Shown here one piece after another: positions 8,153 through 16,334 of a stretch of DNA of 16,334 nt (the first letter of the stretch is position 1; each line of letters starts with the position of its first letter). This DNA comes from Actinomycetes bacterium. GTDB taxonomy: Bacteria; Actinomycetota; CALGFH01. The translations under genes were made by a program, and so were the position numbers. The DNA lies in contig JASLIH010000323.1 in the NCBI GenBank assembly GCA_030152105.1, positions 1-16,334 of the forward strand, given 5' to 3'. The notes beneath the pieces were generated by a model. That model was not told where the DNA came from. It saw only the letters and a list, made by a program, of their open reading frames with translations, and did not search any database.

Positions 8153-8791
8153 ATGCTCGTCGCTGACGCGATGACCGGGGGGCCGGTGACGGTGTCGCCG
8201 CGGGCCACCGTGGCCGCCGCCATGTCGGCCATGCGCCGGGGACGGTTCCGGCACCTGCCGGTCGTGGCCGGGGCCGAGCTGGTCGGGGTGGTCTCCGAGC
8301 GCGACCTGGAGACCTGGCCGGGGGCGGGGGTGGAGGTGGCCGAGTCGCTCGCCGACCGCCCGGTGGCCGAGGTCATGACCAGCCAGCCGGTCACCGTCTG
8401 GCCCGACGAGCCCGTCGAGGTGGCGGCCCGGCTGCTGGTCGACAACGCCATCGGCTGCCTGCCGGTGGTGGCCGAGGAGGGGCTGGTCGGCATCCTCACC
8501 GTGTCCGACCTGTTCTCGGTGCTGCTGCAGCTGCTGGGAGGCGGCGAGCCGTCGAGCCGGATCACCCTGGTCCTGCCCGATGTGCCCGGCGCCCTCGGGC
8601 GGGCCATGACGGTGGTCGGCGAGCTTGGGGTCAACCTGCTCACCGTGGTCACCGAGCCCGGCCCGGAGCCGGGCACCCGCGGGGTCGTCCTGCGGGCCGG
8701 GACGATCAACGCCGCCCCGGTGGTGGCCGCCCTGGTGGCCGCGGGCTTCCCGGCCACCGGCCCCGGCCGGCCCGAGCCGGACGAGCGGTGA
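8153..8791 (+). CDS. acuB: AcuB-like protein: two CBS domains plus ACT domain
   Basis: The 212-residue protein has a CBS pair, repeat 1 at about 1-58 (DAMTGGPVTV to VGVVSERDL) and repeat 2 at about 70-125 (VAEVMTSQPVTV to VGILTVSDL), followed by an ACT domain at about 133-200 (LVLPDVPGALGRAMTVVGEL). This is the architecture of Bacillus AcuB, encoded with the AcuA acetyltransferase and AcuC deacetylase; its role there is not firmly known. CBS domains bind adenosine nucleotides and ACT domains bind small ligands, so it probably senses energy state or a metabolite. The stop overlaps the start of the AcuC-AcuA gene (GTGA, 8788-8791), strong evidence of coupled translation and shared function. No strong ribosome-binding site precedes ATG 8153, which lies 6 bases after nth. 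Confidence 0.85.
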   Translation: MLVADAMTGGPVTVSPRATVAAAMSAMRRGRFRHLPVVAGAELVGVVSERDLETWPGAGVEVAESLADRPVAEVMTSQPVTVWPDEPVEVAARLLVDNAIGCLPVVAEEGLVGILTVSDLFSVLLQLLGGGEPSSRITLVLPDVPGALGRAMTVVGELGVNLLTVVTEPGPEPGTRGVVLRAGTINAAPVVAALVAAGFPATGPGRPEPDER

Positions 8792-10626
8792 GCGGCGCCG
8801 CCGCGGTCGCCGCCGACGGGCGGCTGGCCGCCTACGACTTCGGGCCCGACCGCCCGTTCCAGGCCGGCCGGCTGGACGCCGGCCTGTCGCTGCTGCGGGC
8901 GGCCAAGGTCCTTGACGACGACGACCTGCTGACCTTCGCCCCGGCGGCCGACGCCGACCTGGAGCTGATCCACGACCGGGACTACCTGGAGGCCCTGGCC
9001 CGCTTCTCGGCCCCGGGTCCGGCGCCGGCCGACCCGGCCGAGGCGACCCGCTTCGGGCTGGTCGGGGACAACCGGCCGTTCCCGGGAATGGACGAGGCGG
9101 CCCGGCTGGTCGCGGGGGCGACCATGGCCGCGGTGGACGCGGTCGCCGCCGGCGACCTGGCCCACGTGTTCGCGCCCGTGGCCGGGCTGCACCATGCCCA
9201 GCGGCGCCGGGCTGTCGGGTTCTGCCTGGTCAACGACGTCGCCGTGGCCATCGCCCGCTGCACCAGGGCCTGGCCCTTGCGGGTGCTGTACGTCGACCTC
9301 GACGCCCACCACGGCGACGGCGTCCAGGCAGCCTTCTACGACGACCCGCGGGTGTGCACGGTCAGCCTGCACGAGACCGGCCGCTACCTGTTCCCCGGGT
9401 CGGGCGAGGTCCATGAGCTGGGCCGCCCGCCAGGGAGGGGGCGCAGCGTGAACGTGCCCCTCGAGCCGAGCACCGGGGACGACGGCTTCCTGGCCGCATT
9501 CGACGCCGTCGTCGAGCCGCTGGCCGCCGCGTTCCGGCCCGACCTGCTGGTCACCCAGAACGGCTGCGACGGCCATGCCACCGACCCGCTCAGCGACCTC
9601 ACCCTGAGCCTGCGGGGCTTCCGGGAGCTGGCCAGGCGGCTGCACCGGCTCGCCCACCGCCACTGCCAGGGGCGCTGGGTGGCCACCGGGGGCGGCGGCT
9701 ACGACCTCGACCAGGTGGTCCCGCGGGCCTGGGCGCTGCTCTGGTCAGAGCTCAGCGGCCGCCGGCTGCCGGCCCGGGTCCCGTCGGCCTGGCTGGCCGC
9801 GCGCCCAGCGCGCAAGCGTGCCGAGTGGTCGGGCTGGCTGGAGCCTCGGCGGCGACGGGGGAGTGGCGGGCCCGGGGTTCGGTCGTTGGGGGAGCGCAAC
9901 CAGCGGACGGTCAGGGCGGCGCGGCGGCTGGCCCTGCCGCCGTCGGTGCGCGTGGTCTATCCGCTGGCCCGGCGGGCCGGCGGGGCCGGGCGCCTGCCGG
10001 GGTGGGAGCCGCGGGCGGGCGAGCACCATGCTCCGGGCGGGCCGCTGGTGCTGCGCGACCGCTGCCCGGCCTCGCTGCTGCGCCGGCTCGAGGTCGACCC
10101 GGGGATCCACGCGTTCGTCCGCGACCCCGGCCAGGAGCGGGAGGTGCTGTCCCGGATCGCCGAGGAGCCGACCGGCGAGGTGGTGGTCGCCCACACCCCC
10201 GAGGGGGTGGTGGTGGGGTACGTGGCCGTGCTCGATCCCGAGCCAGGGACCCGCTTCGGCAGCCTGCCGGGCCTGCTGGAGGTGGGGGCGATCGAGGTGG
10301 CCAGCGGCTGGCGGCGGGGCGGGGTGGCCAGCGCCCTGCTCCGCTTCGCCGTCGAGCCAGACCCGTTCGAGGACCTCATCCTGATCGCCTCCGGCCTGGC
10401 CTGGCATTGGGACCTTGAGCAGAGCGGCCTGTCGGCCGTCGCCTACCGGCGGGTCCTGGGCCGCGTGTTCGGGGCCGCCGGGTTCGAGTCGCTCCGCACC
10501 GACGAGCCCGAGATCGCCTATGACCCGGCCAACCTGTTCGTGGCCCGGGTCGGCAGCCGGGTCCCGCCCGTCCGCCGGGCCGCCTTCACCAGCCGCCTGG
10601 TCCGCGGCCACCACGCCGTGCCCTGA
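8788..10626 (+). CDS. AcuC-AcuA fusion: class I HDAC-type deacetylase joined to a GNAT acetyltransferase
   Basis: This 612-residue protein joins two enzymes that act in opposition. Residues 1 to about 320 are an AcuC-type, zinc-dependent deacetylase: paired H135-H136 in GLHHA, zinc ligands D172 and H174 in DLDAHHGDG and D266 in TDPLSD, and the active-site Tyr305 in GGGGY. An Arg-rich linker (about 330-410) follows. Residues about 418-612 match AcuA-type GNAT acetyltransferases: GAIEV at 500-504, the acetyl-CoA loop R509-x2-G512-x-A514, WHWDL at 539-543, and TDEPEI followed by PAN and VARVG from residue 571. In Bacillus, AcuA acetylates and inactivates acetyl-CoA synthetase and AcuC reverses it. 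Coupling to AcuB by GTGA supports the same role. The frame is open throughout, without sign of a frameshift. The one deviation is DRP at residues 20-22 where class I HDACs usually have a His-Pro. Confidence 0.9.
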   Translation: MSGAAAVAADGRLAAYDFGPDRPFQAGRLDAGLSLLRAAKVLDDDDLLTFAPAADADLELIHDRDYLEALARFSAPGPAPADPAEATRFGLVGDNRPFPGMDEAARLVAGATMAAVDAVAAGDLAHVFAPVAGLHHAQRRRAVGFCLVNDVAVAIARCTRAWPLRVLYVDLDAHHGDGVQAAFYDDPRVCTVSLHETGRYLFPGSGEVHELGRPPGRGRSVNVPLEPSTGDDGFLAAFDAVVEPLAAAFRPDLLVTQNGCDGHATDPLSDLTLSLRGFRELARRLHRLAHRHCQGRWVATGGGGYDLDQVVPRAWALLWSELSGRRLPARVPSAWLAARPARKRAEWSGWLEPRRRRGSGGPGVRSLGERNQRTVRAARRLALPPSVRVVYPLARRAGGAGRLPGWEPRAGEHHAPGGPLVLRDRCPASLLRRLEVDPGIHAFVRDPGQEREVLSRIAEEPTGEVVVAHTPEGVVVGYVAVLDPEPGTRFGSLPGLLEVGAIEVASGWRRGGVASALLRFAVEPDPFEDLILIASGLAWHWDLEQSGLSAVAYRRVLGRVFGAAGFESLRTDEPEIAYDPANLFVARVGSRVPPVRRAAFTSRLVRGHHAVP

Positions 10627-10699: not shown

Positions 10700-13048
10700 G
10701 TGAAGCGGACCGGGGAGAAGATGGGGCAGCCCGCCCAGAGCGCCACGCGCCGGTCGGCGGGGGTGGTCGCGCTCGCCGTGGCGCTGCTGGCCGTCCTGGT
10801 CCTGGCCGGGCTCGGCGCGGCCGACAGCCTCAGGGCAGGCACCCGGGCCGAGCGGGTCCGCGGGCTGGCGCCGTACACCGGCGCCCTGACCACCCTGGTG
10901 CGGGAGCTCCAGCGGGAACGGAGCCTGTCCGCGGAGCCCTCCGCGGGGCCGGCCCTCGAAGGGGCCCGTCGGACGGTCGACACGGCCGCCGCCGACTACC
11001 GTGACGCCGCCGTCCGGGTCGAGATCTCCGACCGGGACCGTCGGCTCCACCAGCGCCTCGACACCGGCCTGGCCCAGCTGGCCGGCCTGACCGCCCTGCG
11101 GGCCTCGGTCGACGCCCCGGCCGGGTCGGGCCAGGCGGCCGCGGCGGCCACCGTGTTCCGCCGCTACACCGAGATCGTGGGCGGGCTTCTGGCCGTCGGC
11201 GGCGAGATCGGCCTGTCCGAGGCCGGCCAGGACGCCGAGCTGGTTCGGGCCGTGTCCGCGGCCACCGCCTTCTCGCGGGCCAAGGAGCTGGCCGACCGCG
11301 AGCGGGAGGGGGCCGCCCAGGCGGCGGCCGGCCGCCGGCTCGACCAGGCGGAGCGCACCCGGCTGGCCTTCCTCGCCGGCCGCCAGGACGCGCTCCTCGA
11401 CCAGTTCGCCGCCCTGGCCAGCCCGGCGCAGATGGCCCACTACGCCAGGGCCTTCGCCACCGGGGAGGTCGAGCGGGCCGCCCGACTGCGCAAGGCCGCC
11501 CTCGAGGCCCCCCCGGGCCAGCGCGCCGGTCCCGACCTGGCCGGCTGGTCGGACACGGCCGCGACCAGGGTCGAGCGGATGCGCGAGATCGAGCCCGGCC
11601 TGACCGCCGAGGTGACCCGCCTGGCCGGCCTGACCGACCGGTCCGCCGACCGACGGGTCCTGGCCTATGCCGCCGCCTTCCTCCTCGCCGCCAGCGCCCT
11701 GGTCGTCCTCCTGGTCCTGGCCCCCGGCCGCGCCCGCCGCACCCGCGGTTCCGCCCAGACCCAGCGGTCCCCGGCCCCCTCCGCCCCAGGCGCGGGGGGC
11801 CGAGGCGCGGGGGGCCGAGGCGCGGGAGGCCGAGGCGCGCTGGCCCCAGGCACGGGGGGCCGAGGCGCAGTGGCCCCAGGCGCCCAGGCCCCAGGCGCCG
11901 AGGCCCCAGGCGCGGGGGTCCTGGACACGCTGGACCCCTGGCTCCCGGTGCGGAGCCCCCCGGAGGGGGAGCGTAGTCCAACGGGCAAGGGCGGGCGTCC
12001 GGTTGTCCACGCCCCCCCGGCCGCCGCACAGCGCGACCCGCCGCAGTCCCGGGCCGCGTCGCTGCCCGATGCCGGGCCGGGGCTGGCCGACCTGGCCAGG
12101 CGCAGCCAGGACCTGGTCGACCAGCAGCTTGAGCTGCTGGACCAGGTCAGCCGCGACCAGGGCGACCCCAAGCTGGCAGGGCGGCTGCTCCAGGTCGACC
12201 GTCTGGCGGTCAGGGCGCGGCGCAACGCCCACAACCTGATCGTGCTGGCCGGGGGCGAACCCGCCCGCCACTGGGACGGCCCAGCCCCGCTGGGCGAGGT
12301 GGCCGCCCTTGCGGTCAGCGACAACCCCGACGCCGCCCGGGTCGACCTGGACGTCGCCGGCGACCTGCTGGTGCCGGGCCCGGCCGCCGAGGACCTGGCC
12401 AACCTGCTGGCCGAGCTGGTGGACAATGCCACCGCCTTCTCGGCCCCCGAGACCCGTGTCCGGGTCGGGGGGCAGGAGGTCGGGTCCGGCTACGTCCTGG
12501 AGGTCGAGGACCGTGGCCTCGGCATGACCGACGGGGAGCTGGAGACGGTCAACCGGCGCCTGGCCGGCGACCCGGCGGCCGGCGACGACCTGGAGCAGGG
12601 GCTCGGTGCCTGGGTGGCCGGGCGACTGGCCCGCCGTCACGACGTCAGGGTGCAGCTGCGCCGCTCGCCCTACGGTGGGGTGACGGCGCTCGTGTTCCTC
12701 CCCGAGCTGCTGGTCTCGGGGGCCGAGCCGGCCCCCTCGGAGGGCTCGGGCGAACCGCCGCCGGACGTGGGCGACGGCGAGGACGCCGCCGCCCTGGCCA
12801 GCCTGCCCCTGCGCAGGTACGTGACCCAGATCCCCGAGGCCGACCCGCCCCTGCCCAAGCGGGCGCCCCACGCCAGCCTGGCCCCGGACCTGGCGGCCCC
12901 TGGCAACCCGGCCTCCCGGCCCGCCGCCCGTTCGCCAGAGCAGGTCAGGAGCATGCTGTCCCGGTACCGTTCCGGCCTGGAGCGAGGCCGGGCGGCCGCC
13001 GCCCGCGACCTCCCCGACGACCCGGACGACGACCCGCCCACCCCCTGA
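10700..13048 (+). CDS. NIT-domain sensor histidine-kinase-like membrane protein (CvnA-type)
   Basis: The 782-residue protein has a transmembrane helix at about 18-42, an extracytoplasmic helical NIT (nitrate/nitrite-sensing-type) domain at about 45-315 with the characteristic LVRELQRERSLS, and a second transmembrane helix at about 318-342. A low-complexity Gly/Ala/Pro/Arg linker (about 350-410) precedes an HATPase domain (about 545-675). The ATPase boxes are present: N-box E572-LVD-N576, G1 D604-RGLGM and a final SPYGGVTALVFLP. This is the layout of actinobacterial NIT kinases and CvnA. The acceptor region normally reads LDHLATRxRRNAENL; here it is VDRLAVRARRNAHNL, with Arg501 at the usual His and a His at 511. 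Start: GTG 10700 gives the longest form; ATG 10721 after GGGGAG is an equal alternative. No response regulator or roadblock partner lies nearby. Confidence 0.85.
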   Translation: MKRTGEKMGQPAQSATRRSAGVVALAVALLAVLVLAGLGAADSLRAGTRAERVRGLAPYTGALTTLVRELQRERSLSAEPSAGPALEGARRTVDTAAADYRDAAVRVEISDRDRRLHQRLDTGLAQLAGLTALRASVDAPAGSGQAAAAATVFRRYTEIVGGLLAVGGEIGLSEAGQDAELVRAVSAATAFSRAKELADREREGAAQAAAGRRLDQAERTRLAFLAGRQDALLDQFAALASPAQMAHYARAFATGEVERAARLRKAALEAPPGQRAGPDLAGWSDTAATRVERMREIEPGLTAEVTRLAGLTDRSADRRVLAYAAAFLLAASALVVLLVLAPGRARRTRGSAQTQRSPAPSAPGAGGRGAGGRGAGGRGALAPGTGGRGAVAPGAQAPGAEAPGAGVLDTLDPWLPVRSPPEGERSPTGKGGRPVVHAPPAAAQRDPPQSRAASLPDAGPGLADLARRSQDLVDQQLELLDQVSRDQGDPKLAGRLLQVDRLAVRARRNAHNLIVLAGGEPARHWDGPAPLGEVAALAVSDNPDAARVDLDVAGDLLVPGPAAEDLANLLAELVDNATAFSAPETRVRVGGQEVGSGYVLEVEDRGLGMTDGELETVNRRLAGDPAAGDDLEQGLGAWVAGRLARRHDVRVQLRRSPYGGVTALVFLPELLVSGAEPAPSEGSGEPPPDVGDGEDAAALASLPLRRYVTQIPEADPPLPKRAPHASLAPDLAAPGNPASRPAARSPEQVRSMLSRYRSGLERGRAAAARDLPDDPDDDPPTP
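11787..11919 (+). repeat. tandem GC-rich repeats encoding the flexible linker of the kinase
   Basis: Units of about 15 bases built on GGCGCGGGGGGCCGA are repeated three times (about 11789-11835), then alternate with GGCCCCAGGCGC-type units up to about 11919. They encode GAGGR repeats followed by APGA/APGT repeats at about residues 363-405. The units are multiples of three, so copy changes keep the frame. Copies differ by single bases. The region lies between the second membrane helix and the acceptor region. Confidence 0.85.
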
Positions 13049-13185: not shown

Positions 13186-13818
13186 GTGCAGACCAGGCGA
13201 CGCCAGATCGAGGATGTGGCCAGCGCCCTGTTCAGCTCCCGTGGCTACGCGGCGACCAGCATGCGCGACATCGCCCGGGCCCTCGACCTCCAGGGCGGCA
13301 GCCTCTACTCCCACATCCCCTCCAAGGAGGCGGTGCTGGCGGCGATCGTCGAGGAGGCGGCCGAGAACTTCCACGCCGCCGTGCGGCCGGTGGCCGAACG
13401 GCCGGGCCCGGCGGCCGAGCGCCTGCGGGAGATGGTCGCGGCCCACGTCCGGGTGGTCACCGGGGGCCGCGAGCGGGCCAAGGTGTTCCTGTTCGAGTGG
13501 AGCTTCCTCGGCGAGGAGCGGCGGGCCGCCATCGGCCGGTCCCGGTCCGCCTACCAGGGCTACTTCGAGCGGGTGGTGGCCGAGGGGGTGGCCTCGGGCG
13601 AGCTGGCCGCGCCCGACCCCAAGCTGGCCGCTGTCTTCATCCTCTCGGCCATGAACGCGATCGCCCACTGGTACCGGCCGGACGGGCCGCTCGGCCCCGA
13701 CGCCCTGGCCGAGCACTACGCCGAGCTCTTCCTGGAAGGGCTCGAGGCACAGCACGAGGGGAGATCGATGCGGGCGGGCGCAACCAAGCAGGCAGATGGC
13801 AAAGGGGAGCGCCAGTGA
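13186..13818 (+). CDS. TetR-family transcriptional regulator, likely repressor of the paa operon (PaaR-like)
   Basis: The 210-residue protein has a TetR DNA-binding domain at residues 1 to about 50, with helix-turn-helix TSMRDIARALDLQGGSLYSH and SKEAVLAAIV after it. The rest is a helical ligand-binding and dimerisation domain with a tail of about 20 polar residues. In known systems of this kind the repressor releases DNA when it binds phenylacetyl-CoA. The GTG start at 13186 has AGGAG 7 bases upstream and keeps a short N-terminus before the first helix. It is the first gene after the inverted-repeat operator, and its TGA overlaps the paaA start (GTGA, 13815-13818), so regulator and enzymes share one transcript. 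The TetR call is firm; the PaaR role is inferred from context. Confidence 0.88.
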   Translation: MQTRRRQIEDVASALFSSRGYAATSMRDIARALDLQGGSLYSHIPSKEAVLAAIVEEAAENFHAAVRPVAERPGPAAERLREMVAAHVRVVTGGRERAKVFLFEWSFLGEERRAAIGRSRSAYQGYFERVVAEGVASGELAAPDPKLAAVFILSAMNAIAHWYRPDGPLGPDALAEHYAELFLEGLEAQHEGRSMRAGATKQADGKGERQ

Positions 13819-14726
13819 GCGAATCGGTGCGGGTCCAGGAGTTCAACCGGCATGTCGCCTCGGGTGGCAAGGTGGAGGCGACCGACTGGATGCCCGAGGA
13901 GTACCGCCGGGCCGTCTGCCGGTTCGTCGAGATGCACGCCAACTCCGAGCTGATGGGCGTCCTGCCCGAGCGGGAGTGGATCCTGCGGGCCCCGACCCTC
14001 AAGCGCAAGCTCGCCCTGTCGGCCAAGGTCCAGGACGAGGTCGGGCACGCCCAGCTCCTGTACCGGGTGGCCGAGGACCTGGGCAAGCCCCGCGAGGACA
14101 TGCTCGCCGACCTGCTGGCCGGCAAGACCAAGTTCCACAACGTCTTCCACTACCCGACCAGGAGCTGGGCCGACGTCGGGATCATCGCCTGGCTGGTCGA
14201 CGCGGCCGCGATCGTCGCCCAGCAGGCGCTGCGCGAGTCCAGCTACGCGCCGTACGGGCGGACGATGAAGAAGATCTGCTGGGAGGAGTCGGTCCACATC
14301 CTCCACGGCCGCGACGTGGTCCTGACCATGATGAACGGCACCGGTTCCCAGCGGGCACTGGTCCAGGACGCGCTGGAGCGCTGGTGGGGGCCGCTGATGC
14401 AGATGCACGGGCCGCGGACCGACCCGGCCAAGGACCGCGACCTGGCCTGGCGGATCAAGAACAAGGACAACGAGACCCTGCGCCAGGAGTTCCTGACCGT
14501 GTACGTGCCCCGGATCCGCGAGATCGGCCTGGAGCCGCCCGACCCCGAGCTGGGCCAGGACGACACCGGGCGCTGGCACTACACCGAGCCCGACTGGAAG
14601 GAGCTGTACGCCGTGGTCACCGGCCACGGCCCCCGGTCGGCCGAGCGGCTGGAGCTGCGGCGGCGGCACTACGCCGAGACCCAGTGGGTGCGCGACACCG
14701 TCATGGCCGCGCCGCGGGCCGCCTGA
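13815..14726 (+). CDS. paaA: phenylacetyl-CoA 1,2-epoxidase subunit PaaA (catalytic)
   Basis: The 303-residue ferritin-like protein is the catalytic subunit of the PaaABC(D)E monooxygenase, which converts phenylacetyl-CoA to ring-1,2-epoxyphenylacetyl-CoA in the cytoplasm. Diiron-site motifs are visible: E45 in HANSELMG, E75 and H78 in QDEVGHAQ, E141 in ALRESSY, and E158 and H161 in EESVHILHG. The length is normal for the family. The GTG start overlaps the regulator stop and follows GGGGAG by 5 bases. The protein then begins SESVRVQEFNRHV; longer in-frame extension would overlap the whole regulator gene. paaB begins 2 bases after the stop. Very confident by family similarity and by the paaB, paaC and paaD neighbours. 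Confidence 0.96.
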   Translation: MSESVRVQEFNRHVASGGKVEATDWMPEEYRRAVCRFVEMHANSELMGVLPEREWILRAPTLKRKLALSAKVQDEVGHAQLLYRVAEDLGKPREDMLADLLAGKTKFHNVFHYPTRSWADVGIIAWLVDAAAIVAQQALRESSYAPYGRTMKKICWEESVHILHGRDVVLTMMNGTGSQRALVQDALERWWGPLMQMHGPRTDPAKDRDLAWRIKNKDNETLRQEFLTVYVPRIREIGLEPPDPELGQDDTGRWHYTEPDWKELYAVVTGHGPRSAERLELRRRHYAETQWVRDTVMAAPRAA

Positions 14727-14728
14727 CC

Positions 14729-15046
14729 ATGAGCGGCCAGCCGATGCAGGTCTACGAGGTCTTCCGCCGGGAGCGCGAGGGCGGGCCCATGCAGCACGCC
14801 GGCAACCTGCTCGCCCCCGACGCGGAGCTGGCCCGCCACTACGCCCGCGAGTTCTACGGCCGCCGCCAGGAGTCGGTGCGGCTCTGGATCGTGCCCCGGT
14901 CGGCCATCCTCGACCTCGACGACCCCGACCTGCTCCAGCCGCCGTTCGACCGCTCGTTCAAGAAGCCGGCCGGCTACTCGACCGAGATCAAGGCCAAGCT
15001 GGCCGCGGCCCGGTCCCGCGCCGGCACCCGGAAGGGCGACGAATGA
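14729..15046 (+). CDS. paaB: phenylacetyl-CoA epoxidase subunit PaaB
   Basis: The 105-residue protein is the small structural subunit that bridges the PaaA-PaaC heterodimers of the epoxidase. Recognisable family features are the start MQVYEVFRRE, the segment HAGNLLAPDAELARHYAREFYGRRQ, and VRLWIVPRSAI. The length is typical. ATG 14729 lies 2 bases after the paaA stop and has no strong ribosome-binding site of its own, so translation probably depends on paaA. Its stop overlaps the paaC ATG (15043-15046). Confidence 0.93.
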   Translation: MSGQPMQVYEVFRREREGGPMQHAGNLLAPDAELARHYAREFYGRRQESVRLWIVPRSAILDLDDPDLLQPPFDRSFKKPAGYSTEIKAKLAAARSRAGTRKGDE

Positions 15047-15816
15047 GCGCCCTGGTGCTCGAGACCCCGGTCCGGACCGCGCTGGCCGGCCTGCTCCTGG
15101 CCATGGCCGACGACGAGTTCGTCCTCGGCTTCTGGGACAGCGAGTGGACCGGGATCGCGCCCGTGCTGGAGGAGGACGTGGCCTTCGCGTCGCTCGCGCA
15201 GGACGAGATCGGCCACGCCCAGGCGCTCTACCAGCTGCTGGCCGACCTGGAAGGGGGCGACCCGGACGAGCTGGCCTTTGGGCGGCCGCCGGAGGGCTAC
15301 CGGCACGCCCGGCTGCTCGACCATCCCCGCACCGACTGGGCGTTCTCGGTGGCCCGCCGGTTCCTGTACGACACCGCCGACGCGGCCCGCCTGGACGCGC
15401 TGGCCGCCTCGGCCTACGAGCCCCTGGCCGGGGTGGTGGCCAAGATGCGCCGCGAGGAGACCTACCACCTGCTGCACATGCACGCCTGGGTGGAGCGGCT
15501 GGCCACCGGCGGCGAGGAGCCGAGGGCGCGGCTGGCCGCGGCCATGGAGCGGCTGTGGCCCGACGCCCTGTGCGTGCTCGACGGGATCGAGGCCGACGAC
15601 CTGCTGGCCGAGGCCGGCGTGCTGGCCGAGCCGATGGCCGCCGTCCGGCGGCGCTGGCTGGCCGGCCTGGCCCCGGAGCTGGCCCGCCTCGGCCTGCCGG
15701 CCCCGCCGGCCGCCCAGACGGGGGCCTGCCGCGGGCCCGGCCGCTCCGACGACTTCCGCTGGCTGTGGGAGCAGTTCACCATGGTCCGCCGCTCCGACCC
15801 GGAGGCCGTCTGGTGA
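15043..15816 (+). CDS. paaC: phenylacetyl-CoA epoxidase subunit PaaC
   Basis: The 257-residue ferritin-like protein forms the heterodimer with PaaA and supports the catalytic subunit. Visible motifs are LAQDEIGHAQALYQLL (E55, H58) and RREETYHLLHMHAW (E139, H142), showing that the ferritin-like fold signature is retained. Length is normal. The ATG overlaps the paaB stop. The TGA stop at 15814-15816 lies in a GTGAG that begins an 11-base tandem repeat leading into paaD. Confidence 0.94.
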   Translation: MSALVLETPVRTALAGLLLAMADDEFVLGFWDSEWTGIAPVLEEDVAFASLAQDEIGHAQALYQLLADLEGGDPDELAFGRPPEGYRHARLLDHPRTDWAFSVARRFLYDTADAARLDALAASAYEPLAGVVAKMRREETYHLLHMHAWVERLATGGEEPRARLAAAMERLWPDALCVLDGIEADDLLAEAGVLAEPMAAVRRRWLAGLAPELARLGLPAPPAAQTGACRGPGRSDDFRWLWEQFTMVRRSDPEAVW

Positions 15817-15839
15817 GAACCAGGTGAGAACCAGGTGAG
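15813..15839 (+). repeat. 11-base tandem duplication between paaC and paaD
   Basis: GTGAGAACCAG occurs twice in tandem (15813-15823 and 15824-15834), and a third partial copy, GTGAG, starts at 15835. Each copy offers a GTG in a different frame (15813, 15824, 15835); only 15835 opens paaD. The first GTGA still contains the paaC stop. The repeat also supplies GGTGA sequences complementary to the 16S rRNA tail upstream of the used GTG. Confidence 0.8.
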
Positions 15840-16334
15840 GACCCTGACCCGCGAGGCCGTCTGGGAGGCCCTGGCCGAGGTGCCGGACCCGGAGATCCCG
15901 GTCGTCTCGGTGGTCGACCTCGGCCTGGTCCACAGGGTCGAGCTCGACGGCGAGCGGCTCCGGGTCGAGCTGCTGCCCACCTTCGTCGGCTGCCCGGCCC
16001 TGGAGCTGATCCGCCGGTCGGTGGCCGACCGCCTGGCCGGGATGGCCCCCAGGGTCGAGGTCGAGATGACCTTCGCCGTCCCCTGGACCTCGGACCGGAT
16101 CACCCCCGACGGCCGCCGCAAGCTCCGCCAGAGCGGCTTCGCCCCCCCGGGCCCGGCCGCCGTCGTGGGCGACGCCAGGCCCCTGTTCGCGACCATTGCG
16201 ATGCGCCCGACGGCCACCTGCCCGTGGTGCGGGTCGGCCGACACCGCCCTTGAGAACCTGTTCGGCCCGACCCTTTGCCGCACGGTGTTCTGGTGCAACC
16301 ACTGCCGCCAGCCGTTCGAGCAGTTCAAGGCCGT
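15835..16334 (+). CDS. paaD: PaaD-like protein of phenylacetyl-CoA epoxidase (3' end outside window)
   Basis: At least 166 residues are present and the frame is open at the window end. The N-terminal part is a MIP18/DUF59-type domain with VPDPEIPVVSVVDLGLV and a conserved Cys53 in FVGCPAL. The C-terminal part has a zinc-ribbon-like set, C129-P-W-C132 and C148, C154 and C157, followed by PFEQFKA, as usual in PaaD. PaaD is needed for epoxidase activity and is thought to help mature iron-sulfur or diiron centres, with PaaE as the reductase. The GTG at 15835 is used because the two other GTGs in the tandem repeat are out of frame. Only the last few residues seem to be missing. paaE should follow. 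Confidence 0.93.
   Translation, partial: MRTLTREAVWEALAEVPDPEIPVVSVVDLGLVHRVELDGERLRVELLPTFVGCPALELIRRSVADRLAGMAPRVEVEMTFAVPWTSDRITPDGRRKLRQSGFAPPGPAAVVGDARPLFATIAMRPTATCPWCGSADTALENLFGPTLCRTVFWCNHCRQPFEQFKA

Follow-up and report, generated by a model that had tools for sequence, protein, structure and literature searches.

We describe here a gene, acuCA, that encodes in a single polypeptide an AcuC-type deacetylase followed by an AcuA-type acetyltransferase. The gene lies at positions 8788..10626 of a 16,334-nucleotide stretch of DNA from an actinomycete (contig JASLIH010000323.1, assembly GCA_030152105.1; the whole stretch is hereafter called the window), codes for 612 amino acids and directly follows acuB (8153..8791); both genes, and all features located within them below, are on the forward strand. 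As judged from its sequence, acuCA probably encodes a bifunctional writer-eraser regulator of acetyl-CoA synthetase (Acs), with AcuB and acetyl-CoA setting the direction of the reaction. Such a protein had been proposed in an earlier reading of the letters of the window alone (the original prediction), and the homology of both halves, their catalytic residues, the linkage with acuB and the wide conservation of the architecture, which spans two phyla, now argue for it.

The open reading frame of acuCA starts with GTG and runs over 612 codons with zero internal stops. Pfam assigns residues 23-321 (8854..9750) to Hist_deacetyl (E 1.6e-84), general GNAT models match only under the cut-off (E 0.002) and an NCBIfam search of the 612-amino-acid protein gave no match. 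The C-terminal half is recognised by sequence comparison with proteins of solved structure: residues 372-612 match PDB entry 2q04 (E 3.7e-30), which is AcuA of Exiguobacterium sibiricum (PMC11255334; the articles cited here by PMC number were available in part, and what is taken from them is limited to those parts), and Bacillus subtilis AcuA 9g7f_C over its residues 33-193 (E 5.2e-25). In addition, the motifs GAIEV, WHWDL, TDEPEI and PAN are all found in the protein and can be aligned to AcuA. The idea that this half is an unrelated GNAT is ruled out by these matches. The original prediction of one frame with a complete AcuC-type deacetylase and then a complete AcuA-type GNAT is therefore upheld, including at two points at which it could have been refuted: there is no stop at residues 320-420, and the C-terminal half matches AcuA.

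The fusion is not a peculiarity of the window. Among the candidates scored in a protein search, 2079 relatives of the acuCA protein were found; in 118 of the 120 best listed, the WHWD motif lies behind the deacetylase-matching part, and GGGGY and WHWD occur together, spaced 220-270 residues, in 119 of the proteins P0001-P0121. The sources of these relatives include jgi, ena and ncbi, and together they rule out chance or misassembly as the origin of the fusion in the window. The counterpart in the closely related genome G435 is 88% identical along the whole length. Between the two domains, residues 322-415 (9751..10032) comprise the C-terminal tail of AcuC, the beginning of which can be aligned with the corresponding tail of stand-alone AcuC, and a short linker. 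A predicted structure of the fusion gives a predicted local distance difference test score (pLDDT) <50 at residues 395-401, with low values also at 608-612, and its predicted template modelling score (pTM) of 0.86 hints at a defined domain arrangement. The PDB fold-match lists for this model were filled by histone deacetylases (HDACs) and are uninformative on the GNAT half.

Both halves appear equipped for catalysis. In the deacetylase half, the double histidine H135-H136 of the active site (9190..9195) and residues D170, D172, H174, D177, D261, D266 and Y305 show no variation in an alignment of 33 fused proteins (the window protein and those of 32 fused loci, some of them nearly identical), and the catalytic residues of both halves are also kept in a 38-sequence alignment, A1, whose members are 37-92% identical to the window. 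The single Asp and His residues were assigned through alignment to HDLP. A double His, an Asp-His-Asp zinc site and the tyrosine of GGGY are the motifs expected of the HDAC domain of AcuC (PMC11532494), and the fusion has, in H135, H136, D172, H174, D261 and Y305, the residues that define AcuC as a class I-like bacterial deacetylase (cluster 2). The XGGLHH foot-pocket motif described in the same article reads VAGLHH in the window, with Ala in place of the first Gly.

In the acetyltransferase half (residues 416-612, 10033..10623), E503 (10294..10296) is the equivalent of E102, the general base of B. subtilis AcuA, and W539-H540-W541 (10402..10410) correspond to W138-H139-W140, of which W140 helps acetyl-CoA binding (PMC11255334). 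The residues E97, E102, R108 (R509 of the fusion), W138, H139, W140 and D141, in B. subtilis numbering, are invariant in all 33 fused proteins. Three further residues of B. subtilis AcuA that contact the target lysine, D82, E85 and E135 (PMC11255334), have given way in the window protein to Glu, Thr and Gly. The last of these, G536 (10393..10395), is Gly in 38/38 main-clade fused rows and in 15/16 stand-alone AcuA of Actinomycetota, and the position is Glu in 19/20 stand-alone AcuA of Bacillota and also in the fused protein of the Bacillota genome G851. Since Gly or Glu at this position tracks lineage across fused and stand-alone proteins, it is a lineage trait and not a fusion trait; several AcuA naturally have Gly or Ala there (PMC11255334). 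The protein ends in a free tail, SRLVRGHHAVP (10591..10623), the putative counterpart of the AcuA tail that inserts into the CoA site of AcsA (PMC11910552); past a conserved Phe it has 12 residues against 11 in B. subtilis AcuA, and it retains the RL pair.

The gene upstream, acuB, encodes a protein of 212 amino acids with two CBS domains and an ACT domain. The CBS part is found by Pfam (E 6.7e-31), with ACT models under the cut-off (E 2.4e-05 and 4.4e-04), and the best PDB match is AcuB of Geobacillus stearothermophilus (9s4w, E 6.9e-32), followed by B. subtilis AcuB (9qs7, E 2e-24), in alignments that cover nearly the whole protein, ACT part included. With numbering mapped through G. stearothermophilus AcuB, the nucleotide-site residues R33, H34 and D122 (= D119) are kept, as is E92, and the R51 site is R50. 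The stop of acuB and the start of acuCA share the four nucleotides GTGA (8788..8791). The original prediction had pointed to this overlap; it is present as described, but it is not special, since acuB and acuC of B. subtilis also overlap by 4 nucleotides (PMC13039410), and translational coupling in the cassette is therefore not new.

The linkage with acuB is nearly constant among the fused loci. In 30 of 32, the fusion is immediately preceded by an acuB gene in the same orientation; of the exceptions, L180 stops at a contig edge and L200 is without acuB directly upstream. Nineteen genes of the window were sought in these 32 loci, which are 4-20 kb long; AcuB, AcuC and AcuA were the only ones to recur in the 31 from Chloroflexota, so that the unit is a two-gene cassette, acuB-acuCA. 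At the G435 locus (L177) the fusion has the same neighbours as in the window, before and after it, with Nth, AcuB and the NIT histidine kinase all present, and this locus also keeps CtaG, a methyltransferase, a zinc-ribbon gene and a GDSL lipase-like gene. Some flanking gene families are common to related Chloroflexota genomes, and the flanks of four distant lineages differ; the flank listing was made with a simple caller of open reading frames, which in GC-rich loci often chose antisense frames.

How widespread is this architecture? Genomes were searched for the GNAT half, and matches of E <1e-10 were taken as AcuA; the counts are lower bounds, with a limited number of candidates scored per genome, and four genomes with weak matches only (E >1e-10) in each of Actinomycetota and Chloroflexota were not counted. 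AcuA was found in 26 of 396 Actinomycetota genomes, one of them fused (G435) and 25 with frames too short for a fusion (205-440 amino acids); the 16 of these 25 loci that were fetched (7.7-16 kb) showed no AcuC match beside AcuA. HDAC-family matches, which may or may not be AcuC orthologues, occur in 22 of 24 Actinomycetota genomes with stand-alone AcuA, the best mostly at 33-39% identity. G435 is placed in Actinomycetota because it was drawn from the same phylum as an Actinocorallia genome. In its class, represented by three genomes, the other two (G420 and G449) have AcuC-type matches and no fusion. In Chloroflexota, AcuA was present in 33 of 400 genomes, 27 of which carry the fusion at 30 loci, with frames of 633-721 amino acids from stop to stop; that of G067 runs past the contig end. 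The remaining Chloroflexota genomes include two with an interrupted fused frame (G336 and G354), two with stand-alone AcuA only (G218 and G296) and one with a fragment (G287). In G220, the AcuA frame exits one contig edge (L236) and acuB with a cut acuC frame exits another (L266), so that a fusion was probably split by the assembly; this genome is counted neither as fused nor as stand-alone. Six apparent Chloroflexota fusions (G034, G314, G187, G195, G265 and G123) were dropped because the AcuA match was absent. In Bacillota, AcuA was found in 65 of 398 genomes, with one fusion (G851, 602 amino acids), the others being judged by frame length. A separate sample, made up of 80 genome_contigs loci retained from the 346 relatives found, contained 2 fused genes, 4 separate acuA with acuC (3 of them with acuB between) and 74 loci with acuC and without acuA in the fetched stretch. 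The original prediction had looked to Actinomycetota for the frequency of the fusion; there it is rare (1/396), and it turns out to be mainly a Chloroflexota architecture (27/400).

Phylogenetic trees bear on the origin of the fusion. In the AcuA tree, the Actinomycetota and Chloroflexota fusions form one group (support 100/99) with three stand-alone Chloroflexota AcuA inside, and a fused-only clade was rejected by the approximately unbiased test in the first AcuA tree (p-AU 0.011). We read these three stand-alone proteins as products of later separation or duplication. For AcuC, a single fused clade is compatible with the data (p-AU 0.289) and was recovered in the second AcuC tree, with weak support (61/49). 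The second pair of trees was thinned: both omit 12 fused rows, and the AcuC tree also omits 12 rows of stand-alone AcuC. Long branches and differences in composition were flagged in these analyses, so deep placements are unsure. The AcuA trees took in AcuA relatives only and are therefore no test of the AcuA identity of the C-terminal half. The Bacillota fusion stands apart: G851 sits beside the unfused G890 in both trees (100/99 and 100/100), and a single origin of all fusions is rejected for it (p-AU 6.7e-25 for AcuA and 2.7e-5 for AcuC), which from the sequence data makes it a second, independently derived fusion. In G890, the open frames of acuC and acuA overlap. Among 23 further loci inspected (20 Bacillota and 3 Chloroflexota), separate acuB-acuC-acuA genes are adjacent in 6, all from Bacillota, acuA-acuB-acuC occurs in 8 and one is fused (L233, from G851); as far as gene order tells, the six loci show a simple route to fusion.

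The proposed target is also present in most of the fused genomes searched. In B. subtilis, K549 of AcsA is acetylated by AcuA and deacetylated by AcuC (PMC11255334). Acs was found above the NCBI cut-off in 15 of 17 fusion genomes searched; of the other two, G435 has only Acs pieces on two contigs and G252 has none above the cut-off. Thirty Acs-family loci were fetched (L147-L176), including three from G420 and G449, which lack the fusion; 25 of the 30 contain the motif PKTRS[GA]KIMRR, with the target lysine, as does the Acs fragment of G435 (L215).

A model of the switch can be drawn on this basis. With acetyl-CoA as donor, the AcuA half would acetylate the catalytic lysine of Acs, which sits in the PKTRSGK loop, and so turn Acs off, and the AcuC half, as a zinc deacetylase, would strip the acetyl group from this lysine and turn Acs on. 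AcuB is known to inhibit AcuC (PMC13039410, PMC13121692) and to respond to adenosine monophosphate (AMP; PMC13121692) or diadenosine tetraphosphate (Ap4A; PMC13039410). In the cassette, translationally coupled AcuB would bind adenine nucleotides at its CBS pair and, at low energy, its ACT domain would in the AMP- or Ap4A-bound form inhibit the AcuC half, a state that would silence the eraser and leave the tethered writer active. Because the AcuB-bound state would block the eraser only, low energy or high acetyl-CoA would lead to acetylated Acs, and release of AcuB would reverse this; the fusion would thus behave as a writer at high acetyl-CoA with AcuB engaged, and as an eraser once AcuB releases. 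Joining the enzymes would set their ratio at 1:1 and bring both active sites and the AcuB dimer into one particle, and the placement of AcuA last would leave its C-terminal tail free for the CoA site of Acs. More tentatively, the fusion may be a true bifunctional protein-lysine acetyltransferase/deacetylase in an AcuB2-(AcuCA)2 particle: AcuB would silence the eraser, the tethered writer would keep Acs locked and acetylated, a single nucleotide signal would flip the direction and Gly135 would favour an acetyl-phosphate-dependent side activity. The link with acetyl phosphate comes from the natural Gly135 together with the behaviour of E135 mutants, since E135A or E135Q in AcuA raises acetylation of AcsA and the acetyl-phosphate-dependent phosphotransacetylase activity of the B. 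subtilis AcsA-AcuA complex (PMC11255334).

Several observations weigh against this model of an Acs switch. No Acs gene lies in the window, and in the 17 fusion genomes, many of them fragmented, no above-cut-off Acs was found on the contig of the cassette at a distance of ≤100 kb. The AcuA tail of the fusion is, beyond the retained residues, mostly diverged from that of B. subtilis. AcuB positions for contact with AcuC or Ap4A are changed in the window (D89 to Glu, M188 to Ile, W206 to Gly, and Val at position 120, V117), and among the 30 AcuB proteins encoded at fused loci, 23, all from Chloroflexota, have His and not Arg at position 33 (positions 33-36 read HHLP in 23, RHLP in 6 and HNLP in 1). 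Finally, a closed stand-alone AcuA frame of 218-255 amino acids accompanies the fusion in 8 of the 27 Chloroflexota genomes that carry it and G435 has an additional stand-alone AcuC, so the fusion need not be the sole switch. The original prediction had raised the question whether a separate acuA is absent where the fusion occurs; this is so for G435, in whose genome a search found no second AcuA, and not for those eight genomes.

Could the acetylation switch act mainly on other AMP-forming acyl- or aryl-CoA ligases, such as phenylacetate-CoA ligase, and not on Acs? TetR and PaaA-PaaB-PaaC-PaaD genes lie 2.5 kb downstream of the cassette in the window, and other acyl-CoA ligases are therefore possible substrates; it has been suggested that AcuC may be confined to the ANL ligase family (PMC11532494), and the Acs model has between 10 and 61 matches in every one of the 17 fusion genomes, mostly weaker ligase relatives. 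Yet the gene of the NIT histidine kinase separates the cassette from the Paa genes, a search for the TetR and Paa genes of the window at the 31 Chloroflexota fused loci and across the G435 locus L177 (20 kb) found none, which slightly lowers the odds of this explanation, and the AcuA match is to an enzyme with a known substrate, AcsA. We therefore hold it to be unlikely.

It is also conceivable that a single half does the catalytic work in the cell, with the other acting in binding or regulation. There are precedents, in that one domain of bacterial tandem GNATs may chiefly support the other (PMC8556138) and mere binding of AcuA is enough to inhibit AcsA (PMC11910552), but none of the catalytic residues checked in the two halves varies among the 33 fused proteins or in alignment A1, which makes this explanation quite improbable. 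We give almost no credence to an accidental fusion, whether an artefact of sequencing, assembly or frame or the neutral drift of two adjacent genes. The interrupted frames of G336 and G354 and the single fused genome among three in the family of G851 speak for it; for the window, an artefact is made very unlikely by the relatives with WHWD behind the deacetylase-matching part, and drift fits poorly with the finding that 27 of 400 Chloroflexota genomes have a fused frame with the active sites of both halves conserved. In the family of G851 the same figure means that a sequencing indel may lie behind that fusion. A regulator of Acs with two working halves remains the reading that we prefer.

With respect to known systems, the cassette is closest to the acuABC operon of Bacillus and Geobacillus, with which it shares the three protein families, the catalytic residues and the 4-nucleotide acuB-acuC overlap (PMC13039410). 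It differs in having AcuC and AcuA as one polypeptide, in the order B-CA instead of A-B-C, in Gly at AcuA position 135 and in the absence beside it of acsA, which is divergently adjacent in the operon. Six unfused Bacillota clusters (L238, L244, L247, L251, L253 and L255) have the gene order of the cassette, but with acuC and acuA as separate frames. Isocitrate dehydrogenase kinase/phosphatase, AceK, is likewise a bifunctional converter that holds opposing modifying activities in one polypeptide at the acetate branch point; AceK works by phosphorylation with one active site, whereas the fusion has two unrelated domains and would act on acetyl-lysine. Type III bacterial GNATs resemble the fusion in having a lysine acetyltransferase domain with a partner domain attached in cis (PMC8556138, PMC6434083), but there the attached domain senses a ligand, and in the fusion it is an opposing enzyme.

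The fusion is easy to miss in annotation: among the 120 best-listed relatives, a Pfam GNAT label is attached to only 1, and 12 are named as a compound deacetylase/acetyltransferase. It is nonetheless already visible in database names such as 'AcuC-like enzyme/GNAT superfamily N-acetyltransferase'. Judged by titles and the beginnings of abstracts, with most subscription papers and preprints outside coverage, we found no description of an AcuC-AcuA fusion, and none is mentioned in the available parts of PMC11532494, PMC13121692, PMC13039410, PMC11255334, PMC11910552, PMC11254643 and PMC8556138. If our model is true, opposing lysine acetylation activities in one polypeptide would be a bacterial counterpart of bifunctional kinase/phosphatases, and control of acetate use, for which writer and eraser are separate proteins in Bacillus, may sit in a single two-gene unit. 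The fusion also backs the view of AcuC and AcuA as a working pair and, with its nucleotide sensor, the cassette would make the avoidance of a futile acetylation cycle on Acs testable with two proteins.

Some minor observations concern relatives of the cassette. The three stand-alone Chloroflexota AcuA nested in the fused clade are L213, L214 and L146, and their position suggests that they arose by duplication or by loss of the AcuC half. The interrupted AcuA frames of fused genes are those of L208 (G354) and L209 (G336). The fused gene of G851 (L233, 5467-7272) still has a Shine-Dalgarno-like AAGGAGG at the junction. Stand-alone AcuA loci of Actinomycetota (L217-L227 and L229-L231) have a CBS-only AcuB-like gene 0.3-1.5 kb off on the other strand, in 14 of 16 loci; these frames code for 144-177 amino acids and their ACT part is unmatched. 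In Geobacillus it is the ACT part that binds AcuC (PMC13039410), and this part is missing from the AcuB-like genes where AcuC is not adjacent.

Downstream of the cassette, positions 13186-16332 of the window hold the TetR regulator and then the phenylacetyl-CoA epoxidase genes PaaA, PaaC and PaaD, with a small frame between PaaA and PaaC that is at PaaB's place by position only. A repeat search around acuCA returned nothing bearing on the gene; a 15-nucleotide tandem repeat is located at 11768-11937, within the NIT histidine kinase gene (10700-13048).

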